Source: a virus. From it: a DNA stretch of 20,204 nt. The notes beneath the pieces are model-generated. The model searched no databases. It was given only the letters and a program-made list of their open reading frames with translations, and was not told where the DNA came from. Made by a program: the position numbers and the translations under genes. The stretch covers positions 1 through 20,204 of IMG/VR virus record IMGVR_UViG_3300025098_000367, one strand, 5' to 3'. Of the stretch, positions 14,685 through 17,884 are shown in pieces. Each line of letters starts with the position of its first letter. Positions within the stretch are counted from its first letter, which is position 1.

Positions 14685-14885
14685 TTAGCTAATGTCCATC
14701 GCATCTGATCCGCGCTGTATCATATCTGCATGCATTGTTTCACATGTGCGCAGCAACGCGATATAAGCACGAACAAGGGCTTCCATTTCGTGATCGCCGC
14801 GCATCCACCTGTCTTGCGGTAAGCCGCGCTCTGCACGCTCTATAATCTTTGCTGCGATGGCAAAGTAGTCTGGTATATCATTCAT
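14685..14885 (-). CDS. Small uncharacterised protein, 66 aa
   Basis: A soluble, helical protein (DYFAIAAKIIERAERGLPQD then EMEALVRAYIALLRTCETMH). It starts at ATG 14885, 8 bases inside the HNH gene, and is probably translationally coupled to it. It is followed by a 50-base gap before the next gene. Family not recognised. Helical host-takeover proteins of this size are common in phage early regions. Confidence 0.55.
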   Translation of the reverse strand: MNDIPDYFAIAAKIIERAERGLPQDRWMRGDHEMEALVRAYIALLRTCETMHADMIQRGSDAMDIS

Positions 14886-15231
14886 CCTTTTCTCCCTCTA
14901 ATTCCATCCAGTGATAAATCCTGTGACAATTACAGCACAGTGGGATGCATTTCTCAACTTCCTCCCACATTCGCTTAAACTGACCTTGCTGCAACAACTT
15001 ACTTACCTTTGGGTCGTTGTTCTGGTCGGGGTGGTGAAAATCTATTGCAGCAGGATGAGAAAAGCCACAAAAAAAGCAGGACAAGCCTGCTTTGTAGTCT
15101 CGAAACTTCTGTCTTTGCTCTTTCTTTCGCTTTCGCGTTCGTTCAAGCGTGCGTTCTCTGTTGCGCTGATACCAATCAGCACCGTACTTCTTGTTATACT
15201 CCCTGCGCTTCCCCTTGTCTTTGTACGGCAA
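14878..15231 (-). CDS. HNH-type nuclease-like protein, 117 aa (TTG start)
   Basis: The N-terminus (MPYKDKGKRREYNKKYGADW, then a highly basic helix) is characteristic of a family of small phage HNH proteins. The nuclease core follows: CFFC (52-55), IDFHHPDQNN (63-72), and CCNCHRIYH (99-107) with its zinc cysteines and HNH-type histidines. It could nick or cut DNA. Candidate roles are packaging, recombination or homing. An in-frame stop lies 6 bases upstream and there is no ATG before residue 88, so TTG 15231 is the likely start, consistent with the family's usual N-terminus. Only a weak AGAAG ribosome site is visible. Confidence 0.75.
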   Translation of the reverse strand: MPYKDKGKRREYNKKYGADWYQRNRERTLERTRKRKKEQRQKFRDYKAGLSCFFCGFSHPAAIDFHHPDQNNDPKVSKLLQQGQFKRMWEEVEKCIPLCCNCHRIYHWMELEGEKDE

Positions 15232-15276: not shown

Positions 15277-15492
15277 TTATTCAGGACGTAAAACAGGGGC
15301 AATGGACTTTGATAACTTGTCAGTCTTAATGCACCACATATTAACGTCACCGTCTGCAAACATATACTCTGCCATGTCCTCGTTGTCGCGGATCATAACC
15401 TGACACGCCTCATAGCTGGGCAACAGTATATACGACTGTATATCCATGCCTCTCACTGCGTATTCAATGTAAAACGCGGTAAAAAATTCCAT
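15277..15492 (-). CDS. Small uncharacterised protein, 71 aa
   Basis: The start is set at ATG 15492 because GGGAG lies 8 bases upstream. An in-frame ATG at 15567 would run the frame back through the long hairpin and lacks such a site. The product (FFTAFYIEYAVRGMDIQSYI, then LLPSYEACQVMIRDNEDMAE) resembles small phage proteins with an aromatic N-terminus and a central Cys. It has no membrane span. A 6-bp inverted repeat CCTGAA/TTCAGG overlaps its stop codon (15260-15285). Function unknown. Confidence 0.55.
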   Translation of the reverse strand: MEFFTAFYIEYAVRGMDIQSYILLPSYEACQVMIRDNEDMAEYMFADGDVNMWCIKTDKLSKSIAPVLRPE

Positions 15493-15525
15493 TGCGCTGG
15501 CTCCCTGTTTTGTTAGATTGTCGCG

Positions 15526-15610
15526 GTGGGGCGAAAGTGACTGTGCGATTACTGTGTTATTGCGCAATCAGGCTTGTTGATCGGCAAAATCTCGCACAAG
15601 TCCGCCCCAC
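15526..15610 (-). ncRNA. Candidate structured RNA: 85-nt long imperfect hairpin
   Basis: The gap between the transporter gene and the 71-residue gene folds on itself along its whole length. On the minus strand the arms are GTGGGGCG (15610-15603) with CGCCCCAC (15533-15526), GAC with GTC, TGTGCGA with TCGCACA, TTGC with GCAA, and CGATCA with TGATTG around a 7-base loop. That is about 28 pairs with small bulges and one larger internal loop. The innermost stem needs a G-U pair on the minus strand but would be an A-C mismatch on the plus strand, which favours an RNA read leftward with the operon. No T-run follows, so it is not a simple terminator. Possible roles: riboswitch, processing site, stable sRNA, or a DNA cruciform. 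Confidence 0.5.
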
Positions 15611-15615
15611 ACGAT

Positions 15616-16128
15616 TTACTTTTTAATTGCGTATTTTATTGCGGCGGCTGCGATTAAGCTAATCACTAGCTTTCCGAATATTTGACCCTCGACATACGCG
15701 AGAGAACCAAAGGCTATATATAGGAAAACTATGCTGTCCATGACTGCCCCAGCTAGGCCAGATGCAGCAACAGCCAAAGCCCTGCCATATTTGCGCACAT
15801 ATGTGTAAGCGCCAAAGTCCACCAATTCTGACGCGCCAAATGCCAAGATGCTTGCAAGCGCAATAAATGGATCGGCAAGCAGGTATGACAAGATTGCGCC
15901 CACTATTATACCACCCAACGCCCATTTCACACCTAGATGCTCTTGGACTTGATCGCGCAAAACCAAAGCCGCGCCTACCATCAAAACACCACTAGGCGCT
16001 GTCATGCCAAATCCAACTGGGATCATGCACGGCCCATCTGTTATGCAGAACGTGCCAACATTACCAATCATCCAGTTTGCTGCGGGTATTGTTGCTATAT
16101 ACCCTGCTAAATATCCCCACTTTTTCAT
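15616..16128 (-). CDS. yhhQ: VUT/YhhQ-family queuosine-precursor transporter, 170 aa
   Basis: This is a polytopic membrane protein with about five or six spans. It carries the VUT-family core: SELVDFGAYTYVRKYGRALA (100-119), with the acidic Glu101 and Asp104 and Arg112, followed by SGLAGAVMDSIVFL (123-136) with Asp131, and the end motif GQIFGKLVISLIAA. YhhQ proteins import preQ0/preQ1, precursors of 7-deazaguanine bases. At 170 residues it is shorter than the about 220 residues of bacterial members, with the loss at the N-terminus. GAGG precedes the ATG by 8 bases. It lies 14 bases downstream of the DpdA/TGT-like gene, which suggests the pair supplies and inserts a modified base. Substrate is inferred from the family. 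Confidence 0.8.
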   Translation of the reverse strand: MKKWGYLAGYIATIPAANWMIGNVGTFCITDGPCMIPVGFGMTAPSGVLMVGAALVLRDQVQEHLGVKWALGGIIVGAILSYLLADPFIALASILAFGASELVDFGAYTYVRKYGRALAVAASGLAGAVMDSIVFLYIAFGSLAYVEGQIFGKLVISLIAAAAIKYAIKK

Positions 16129-16142
16129 GTCAATATCCTCTC

Positions 16143-16745
16143 TTATATCATGTTGAGCATGGGTTGCTCGTTAAGCCAGCGAAGCCACTTATCTAGCTTT
16201 GCTCTATTCTCGTCTGGCGCAAATGCAAGCATAGTTCCGTCCACGCTGTCACACCCTATTGCAGCCGCAAGACGCATTCTTTGGTAGCTATTCACTCTAC
16301 CCATATGCACCCACTTATCTCGGCGTTTGGCTTCTGCCACAAGATCAGCGGCAGCTTGGCTCAGTTTCCACTCTGTGCTGCCACCAATAAATATTGCATC
16401 TAACTTTGACCACTCAACTGTGTTGGGCAGCTCACCATCTTGGCAGACATAGGCAGCCTTAAAGCCTAACTTTTGGATGCGTGGCAGCATTGGGTAGGCT
16501 CGATCTTTTGTTGCTGCTGCGTCACCAACCACATCAGGTGCTGCGGCAAACAAGCAAGCGTCACGATCTAACTTATCAAGCCAAGCAAGAAAGCCATCGT
16601 TGCTGTACTTGCCTGCCTGAACAAAACATCCATTGTCAGCGGCGAACAAGCTGTGACCATGAATTGACTGCTTGCCAGCGTTGAAACTAAGCATAACACC
16701 AAGCTGGTCGGTGCATTCTACTTTTTTGCCGCTTAGATAGATCAT
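16143..16745 (-). CDS. dpdA: DpdA/TGT-like 7-deazaguanine transglycosylase, 200 aa
   Basis: The protein keeps the TGT-type barrel motifs in order: FAADNG (34-39, substrate-binding Asp37), APDVVGD (69-75), VCQDG (100-104, equivalent to the Gln/Gly loop of TGT), FIGGSTEWK (119-127, equivalent to GGLAVGE), and HMGRVNSYQRM (147-157) followed by GCDSVDGT (164-171), where Asp169 or Asp166 would be the nucleophile. TGT exchanges guanine for a 7-deazaguanine in tRNA; DpdA enzymes do so in DNA. The C-terminal Cys/His zinc site of tRNA-type TGT is absent and the protein ends soon after the catalytic motif, both favouring a DpdA-like DNA enzyme. The ATG overlaps the HTH gene stop by 4 bases (ATGA). Family confident, DNA substrate inferred. 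Confidence 0.78.
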   Translation of the reverse strand: MIYLSGKKVECTDQLGVMLSFNAGKQSIHGHSLFAADNGCFVQAGKYSNDGFLAWLDKLDRDACLFAAAPDVVGDAAATKDRAYPMLPRIQKLGFKAAYVCQDGELPNTVEWSKLDAIFIGGSTEWKLSQAAADLVAEAKRRDKWVHMGRVNSYQRMRLAAAIGCDSVDGTMLAFAPDENRAKLDKWLRWLNEQPMLNMI

Positions 16746-17008
16746 TTCATAAAATACTTAGCTTTCCAGTAACGCACGCTGCTTTCAGATATGCCTAGCT
16801 CATTGGCGATATCTACCGTGCGGAAACCTTCCTCTACCAGTTCCTTAATTAACGCCAAGCGCTCTGGGTTATATGTTCCATGCGGTCTTCCCTTCTGCGT
16901 TGGCTTCGGCTGTTCGCGTTTTTGTTGTTGCAGTCCTGTACCCCATTTCTTGCGGTACGCAGCATTTTCCTGCTTGGCTAGTGCGGCCCATGCTGTTGCT
17001 ATTGTCAT
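16742..17008 (-). CDS. Small HTH DNA-binding protein, 88 aa
   Basis: A helix-turn-helix fills about residues 61-83 (GFRTVDIANELGISESSVRY). It is preceded by a basic linker with a KGRPHG motif (39-44), similar to an AT-hook, and by an N-terminal helix. This resembles resolvase-type HTH domains used by transcription factors and small terminase-like proteins. It is coupled by ATGA overlaps to the genes on both sides, so it is made with the DpdA-like protein. It may be the operon's regulator or may help deliver the modifying enzyme to DNA. A terminase small subunit is possible but no large subunit is in the window. Confidence 0.7.
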   Translation of the reverse strand: MTIATAWAALAKQENAAYRKKWGTGLQQQKREQPKPTQKGRPHGTYNPERLALIKELVEEGFRTVDIANELGISESSVRYWKAKYFMK

Positions 17009-17419: not shown

Positions 17420-17593
17420 TCAACGAGTATGCTGGACCACATTGCGGTTAGCATCCATTAAGTCGATTGATTGGCAAATCTCCTCTATCCATGACAGCGG
17501 CACAGTTTCGCCTTGCGCAATTGTACTACGCACAGCTTCTGCTCTGCTATATGCCTGATAGTAGGCTTGCACATATTTATTGTGTTTTTCCAT
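17420..17593 (-). CDS. First gene of the leftward operon, 57 aa
   Basis: The frame runs from ATG 17593 to TGA 17420-17422. A very strong ribosome site (AAGGAAGG) precedes the start by 5 to 6 bases, and the candidate leftward promoter is about 50 bases upstream. The product is helical and aromatic at the N-terminus (YVQAYYQAYSRAEAVRSTIA), with a mid-protein Trp and Cys (LSWIEEICQSIDLMD). No known motif. It is promoter-proximal with excellent translation signals, so it is probably abundant early in infection. Confidence 0.65.
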   Translation of the reverse strand: MEKHNKYVQAYYQAYSRAEAVRSTIAQGETVPLSWIEEICQSIDLMDANRNVVQHTR

Positions 17594-17629
17594 TGCTTCC
17601 TTCCTTGTAAATATTTAGTCAATCCCTAG

Positions 17630-17659
17630 TTGACATCTAATTAATATCAGTGTTAAGAA
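17630..17659 (+). promoter_or_regulatory. Candidate rightward early promoter
   Basis: A perfect -35 box TTGACA (17630-17635) is followed 18 bases later by TAAGAA (17654-17659) with an extended TG just upstream. Start of transcription near 17666 would give a leader of about 27 bases to the RHH-like gene at 17693. The -10 is weak, so the call relies on the -35 and position. Confidence 0.45.
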
Positions 17660-17670
17660 ACGAATGTCAA
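17641..17670 (-). promoter_or_regulatory. Candidate leftward early promoter
   Basis: On the minus strand a perfect TTGACA (17670-17665) is followed 18 bases later by TATTAA (17646-17641), matching four of six positions. It faces and overlaps the rightward candidate. It would start transcripts near 17634, about 40 bases before the 57-residue gene. Confidence 0.5.
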
Positions 17671-17692
17671 CAATTTTTTTTGTGAGGTAAAA

Positions 17693-17884
17693 ATGAATAG
17701 CGACACAAAGCCATGCATGCTGCACCTAAGTAAGACTGCAGACGAAGTAATAGAGCGACTGCGATTTGATGATGTGTACAAACCACAGGGCCGCAGAAAG
17801 CACAGCCGCAGCGACTTTGTAGAAGACGCAATCCTGTTTTACGCGAAACACTTGGAAGCGCAGCTAGATGGTCAACGGGCGTAA
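17693..17884 (+). CDS. Ribbon-helix-helix-like small DNA-binding protein, 63 aa
   Basis: The layout fits an Arc/MetJ-type ribbon-helix-helix: a short strand (KPCMLHLSK), a helix (TADEVIERLRFDDVY), a basic loop (KPQGRRKHSRSD), and a second helix (DFVEDAILFYAKHLEAQLDG). RHH proteins are dimers that read DNA with the strand pair, often as autorepressors. It is the first gene right of the divergent control region, with GAGG six bases before the ATG. Autoregulation of the 17629-17671 inverted repeat is inferred, not shown. It overlaps the resolvase-like gene by 17 bases. Confidence 0.6.
   Translation: MNSDTKPCMLHLSKTADEVIERLRFDDVYKPQGRRKHSRSDFVEDAILFYAKHLEAQLDGQRA

Follow-up and report, generated by a model that had tools for sequence, protein, structure and literature searches.

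The window, which is the whole 20,204-nt stretch of DNA analysed here, is a piece of an uncultured podovirus encoding a portal protein (phrog_1216) and a RecE-like exonuclease; among cultured viruses, the closest portal protein belongs to Octadecabacter Antarctic DB virus 2 (48% identity). A leftward operon of small genes runs from 17593 to 14446 and meets the rightward virion genes, while a divergent promoter region at 17593-17693, with a TTGACA box on either strand, splits it from the rightward replication genes. The operon contains a single long gap of 123 nt, from the stop codon of a transporter gene (15616) to the next start codon (15492), exactly as an earlier note made from the sequence had described it. 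The upstream gene (15616..16128, minus strand) encodes a queuosine-precursor-transporter-like protein (YhhQ/Vut_1; Pfam PF02592 above the cut-off, NCBIfam TIGR00697 below it), and its stop lies 1 nt away from a conserved TCGT. The downstream gene (15277..15492, minus strand) encodes a small unknown protein of 71 aa of the 'MEFF' family, the usual downstream gene in this operon, which we named after its first residues and whose AlphaFold2 model is of low confidence (pLDDT 63). Just past MEFF lies an HNH endonuclease gene (phrog_3106) at 14878-15231. In close relatives, the gene directly upstream of the element is usually that of a small HTH protein, found in the window at 16742..17008 on the minus strand. 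The transporter gene and the preceding 200-aa gene (phrog_15826, without a match in Pfam, NCBIfam or PDB) form an insert at 15616-16745 between the HTH gene and the element, absent from the relatives L009, L011, L012, and L020. Another IMG/VR contig, 3300025083_000103, carries the same element together with a transporter gene 100% identical to that of the window.

The core of the gap, at 15526..15610, is assigned as a structured RNA from its folds, the covariation of its terminal stem P1, its homologous position, and its family. On the minus strand, with the RNA 5' end at 15610, it forms a rod of 28 pairs, in agreement with the roughly 28 pairs over 85 nt of the earlier note, and for the whole 123-nt gap the minus strand reaches -41.6 kcal/mol (z -4.2), which no shuffle equals. 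On the plus strand, it forms a Y-shaped three-way junction in which P1 (15526-15533/15603-15610) closes two hairpins, Pa (15538-15570) and Pb (15571-15602); the plus-strand fold has an energy of -38.4 kcal/mol (z -2.15; equalled by 4 of 200 shuffles). P1 is directly followed on the plus strand by ACGA (15611..15614; TCGT before P1 on the minus strand), which is invariant in 63 of 63 distinct flanks, many of them retrieved with patterns containing TCGTG.

The note had also held that the structure resembles neither a tRNA nor a simple terminator, and our searches support this: ARAGORN detected no tRNA or tmRNA at the element, and a terminator scan found none in the region, there being no GC-rich hairpin directly 5' of a T run; on the plus strand, no more than a weak T bias sets in about 8 nt past P1. 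For want of a T run, an intrinsic terminator was rejected. In the Rfam scan that the note had proposed, covariance models of Rfam 15 gave no family at or above its gathering cut-off, and permissive searches yielded chance-level matches only.

A family with a covarying stem and exchanged apices

Relatives were gathered in searches that used the stem sequence, loop motifs, or the HTH and MEFF proteins encoded nearby. About 100 IMG/VR contigs (58 distinct sequences) from uncultured, mostly marine phages carry an element of 58-105 nt at the same place. It starts 0-3 nt past the stop codon wherever the upstream ORF is readable, the next start codon usually lies 24-41 nt beyond the stem, and, read on the minus strand, the element is always in sense orientation to the operon genes. 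Every one of the 25 contigs searched whole contains exactly one copy. The flanking genes fall into 13 upstream and 14 downstream clusters, indicating that the element is tied to neither neighbour. MEFF was matched in 68 of 77 loci, and in most loci it stands directly after the element or behind inserted ORFs. A MEFF-specific leader was rejected, as many loci have a different ORF after the element and two lack the gene: L116, where the downstream MEFF is cut to a 21-codon remnant, and L135, which has no downstream gene on that strand. Both keep the element.

Scanning 84,980 species genomes with one pattern produced a single match, without a closing stem, which we judged to be chance, and blastn found no element in cultured phages. 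It is absent from the Octadecabacter virus with the nearest portal protein and from the examined parts of Roseobacter phages CRP-738 and CRP-902. We rate the structured RNA as a new family outside Rfam and of a known kind, namely phage small or antisense RNA.

P1 carries the compensatory changes that the earlier note had sought in related phages, in forms such as GGGGCG/CGCCCC, GGGCGG/CCGCCC, GGGCCG/CGGCCC, and GGGCAG/CTGCCC, among more. Among the 16 distinct pairs of arms, 97% of cells form a pair, a count biased by the extraction of elements via exact 7-bp arms, and both sides change in 4 of 9 pairs. None of 500 shuffles equalled P1 in paired cells and covariation score, and sliding the partners lowers pairing to 37-55%. 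The arm is also present in all 38 distinct sequences that were found by loop motifs alone. Models built from one subgroup find other subgroups, as seen for covariance model R1, which was built from type B and recovers the window at an E value of 2.6e-6.

Inside P1, the apex takes at least seven forms (A to G). Type A is that of the window. Type B has UCGGG and GCUGCUGG..GACGCC, and type C, read on the minus strand, has UCGGGAUA..ACCAACAAAA; the others are D (L148, L057), E (L062), F (L072), and G (L135). Near-identical HTH and MEFF genes flank types A, B, and C, indicating that the apex has been swapped. Types A and F have their inner part in common (0 of 500 shuffles), and a 10-base piece of type A recurs in L060 (p 0.06). 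Type A as an inverted copy of another type was not significant (p 0.16). In C-type elements (e.g., L080:1988-2060), UGUUGG and CCGACA on the plus strand could pair loop to loop, either inside one RNA or between two; as the two motifs hardly vary, covariation lends this pairing no support.

The adjoining promoter-like sequence and the functional strand

Between the element and the next gene, a leader reading GACAAnnTAnCAAAACA...CAA on the minus strand is kept across differing downstream genes. On the plus strand, it reads as TTGnnn, 16 bp, and TG-n-TAnnTT, ending 7 nt ahead of the first base of P1. In the window, the -35-like hexamer of the proposed small-RNA promoter is TTGCGC (15492..15497, plus strand), followed after the 16-bp spacer by the extended -10-like element TGtTAGATT (15511..15519, plus strand), the last base of which lies 7 nt before P1 and would place +1 at 15526. 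The proposed promoter overlaps the start region of MEFF. Its TTG, TA, and last T are kept in nearly all relatives and TG in most, and the hexamers vary (TAGATT, TAAATT, TATCTT, and TATATT; TTGCAC, TTGTCC, and TTGATT). The CAA, equivalent to TTG, stays at a constant distance from P1 even where the start codon shifts.

Scored with sigma-70 hexamer frequencies written from general knowledge, 59 distinct flanks have a mean of 9.7 versus 0.55 for shuffles, a comparison that overstates significance because the flanks are related sequences. The 95th percentile of the shuffles is exceeded by 54 of the 59 (92%), compared with 7% on the other side of the element. As a control, 680 regions were scored in the same geometry at the starts of other genes in these phages; they have a mean of -1.2 and reach 9 in 0.7% of cases. 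The site in the window scores 9.75, a value reached by 0.24% of all window positions. A simple consensus promoter scan of the window did not list it, its hexamers matching at 3/6 and 4/6; the site emerges from conservation across relatives. L135, L079, L116, L148, and L072 have a weak promoter or none.

From this neighbouring promoter we infer that the plus strand is probably the functional one. The structural tests of strand, which comprised G-U asymmetry, fold z-scores, and paired covariance models, gave mixed results. In L011 and L012, two of the three nearest type-A relatives, the minus-strand rod loses 2-3 of its 28 pairs with none rescued, whereas the plus-strand Y keeps 30 of 31 pairs, with two (L011) and three (L012) changes kept as G-U; across all three relatives, 30-31 of the 31 pairs of the Y persist, and G-U pairs accommodate between one and three changes. 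P1 extends further on the plus strand in 25 elements and on the minus strand in 8. The z-score is lower on the plus strand in 43 of 58 elements, while energies are slightly lower on the minus strand on average. The minus-strand model R1 outscores the plus-strand model R3 by 1-5 bits in most relatives, and by inspection some changes in stem P3 (L038, L066, and L079) are G-U only on the minus strand. In countertranscript systems such as plasmid CopA/CopT, both strands fold. If the element works in a similar manner, both of its strands must fold, and mixed strand signals would be expected. These results qualify two points of the earlier note. The almost end-to-end hairpin is real and beyond chance, but the nearest relatives do not preserve the outer part of the rod; the better pairing of one stem on the minus strand holds for the minimum-energy fold of the window sequence, but the promoter points to the plus strand.

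Candidate functions

Given these observations, the explanation to which we give moderate preference is a phage small-RNA gene on the plus strand, antisense to the mRNA of the leftward early operon and producing a Y-shaped RNA of about 85 nt. A sigma-70-type extended -10 promoter would direct host RNA polymerase to start at about 15526, and the transcript would fold with its ends paired in P1 and two hairpins as arms. Since the operon mRNA carries the exact complement of this RNA folded in mirror image, the RNA would act as a countertranscript, most likely through loop-loop pairing with that segment followed by duplex formation. The duplex could then be cut by RNase III, or the downstream genes could be uncoupled from the upstream ones, and the pairing specificity would lie in the swapped apical domains, as it does in other antisense-RNA systems. 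Besides the promoter and the type-A folds, the single copy per contig and the persistence of the element in L116 and L135 speak for this reading. Several points stand against a small-RNA gene: the structural strand tests are mixed, some loci have a weak promoter or none, promoter-like leaders also occur apart from a hairpin (L067 and L062), most loci have no terminator after the plus-strand RNA, and the predicted RNA, with its 5' end 34 nt from the next start codon, leaves the ribosome-binding site of the next gene uncovered.

The same structure could instead function in the minus-strand mRNA, as an intercistronic hairpin for processing, stability, or insulation of translation between the upstream stop and the next ribosome-binding site, with an apex of little importance. 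This reading, which we consider rather unlikely, draws on the invariable sense orientation and the regular spacing from the stop and start codons, and on the slight advantage of the minus strand in average energy, in model score, and in some G-U pairs. It leaves the TTG-N16-TGnTAnnTT pattern on the opposite strand unexplained, however, and it would not predict an element that persists where the downstream gene is lost (L116 and L135). Moreover, the type B stem of just 9-10 bp is short for RNase III, and the long type A rod does not stay intact in its nearest relatives. An element acting as DNA, such as a cruciform, a protein-binding palindrome, or a replication or recombination site where cargo genes come and go, appears improbable to us. 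The lack of any G-U at P1 pairs 1-8 in the 58 elements would suit it, but this lack is partly due to how the elements were extracted, and the window type does have G-U changes, kept on the plus strand. The single copy per genome and the exchange of both flanks for unrelated genes are also in its favour, while the conserved loops (UCGGG and ACCAACAAAA) and the conserved adjoining promoter suggest a transcript.

The earlier note had linked the structure to the 7-deazaguanine transporter gene and had named four options, a new riboswitch and a stable phage small RNA among them. A structured RNA outside Rfam is borne out and the small RNA is retained, but a ligand-binding riboswitch controlling the neighbouring genes, for instance one for a 7-deazaguanine, seems to us very improbable. 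Its appeal lies in the transporter gene adjoining the element in the window and in L002. Most relatives lack the transporter and have other genes upstream; the link is accidental, given that the transporter pair is an insert and that unrelated genes flank the element in relatives. The apex, which is where an aptamer would sit, swaps between unrelated forms beside near-identical neighbours while the stem stays, and no riboswitch in Rfam matches. We thus found neither a conserved aptamer core across types A-G, for preQ1 or another ligand, nor a constant link to genes of one pathway among the upstream and downstream clusters. An integron attC site was also rejected: such sites occur in many copies with RYYYAAC and GTTRRRY core ends, whereas the element has one copy per contig and, by inspection, ends in TCGTG and CAC.

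Comparison with known phage RNAs

The small-RNA reading was compared with known phage systems. The packaging RNA (pRNA) of phi29, likewise a podovirus, is a three-way junction with paired ends and its own promoter (here predicted), and it belongs to a packaging motor without a classical large terminase. A pRNA of this type was rejected, as the terminase large subunit (PF03237) was found in 7 of 12 contigs; the element is also shorter and has no Rfam match. The RNase III processing hairpins of T7 lie between phage genes as well, in many copies, in contrast to the single-copy element with its conserved loops and the short stem of types B and C. The closest in kind are the phage antisense RNAs lambda OOP (77 nt) and P22 sar (68/69 nt), which pair with cII or ant mRNA (PMC12197685). 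The element resembles them as a short phage RNA of similar size with its own promoter, as judged from sequence, opposite an early or regulatory operon. It differs in the predicted start of its RNA, which lies upstream of the next gene's ribosome-binding site and leaves both that site and the coding sequence of a target gene uncovered, in having no evident terminator, in its swapped apical domains, and in the phages that carry it. The c4 antisense RNA of phages (RF01695, listed in PMC2864571) is also a small structured phage RNA; it is a known family named as antisense, whereas the element has no Rfam match.

For a structured RNA, it is unusual that the apex is swapped among phages with shared neighbouring genes, and this suggests pairing specificity or an arms race. 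We tentatively propose that the element may represent a new class of phage small RNA, made early in infection from a promoter of its own, that combines a constant end stem, which covaries, with exchangeable recognition arms; swapped between close relatives, these arms would determine specificity or immunity against sister phages or host factors. The element adds a testable RNA gene, with about 100 contigs, one copy per genome, strong stem evidence, and a likely promoter of its own, to a poorly studied phage group.

The region after the element also appears to be an insertion hot spot. By sequence, GIY-YIG-like, cytosine-methyltransferase-like, XRE-like, and other ORFs follow the element in L050, L066, L083, L088, and L141, and in most of these five loci they lie between the element and MEFF. 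In L062 (2478-3213) and L067 (2600-3213), a truncated MEFF is followed by a promoter-like leader and then by a second, complete MEFF downstream. The leader in L067 is without a detected hairpin, and in L062 a leader is also found away from the hairpin. This arrangement suggests that a cassette entered MEFF by recombination at an ACAA site.
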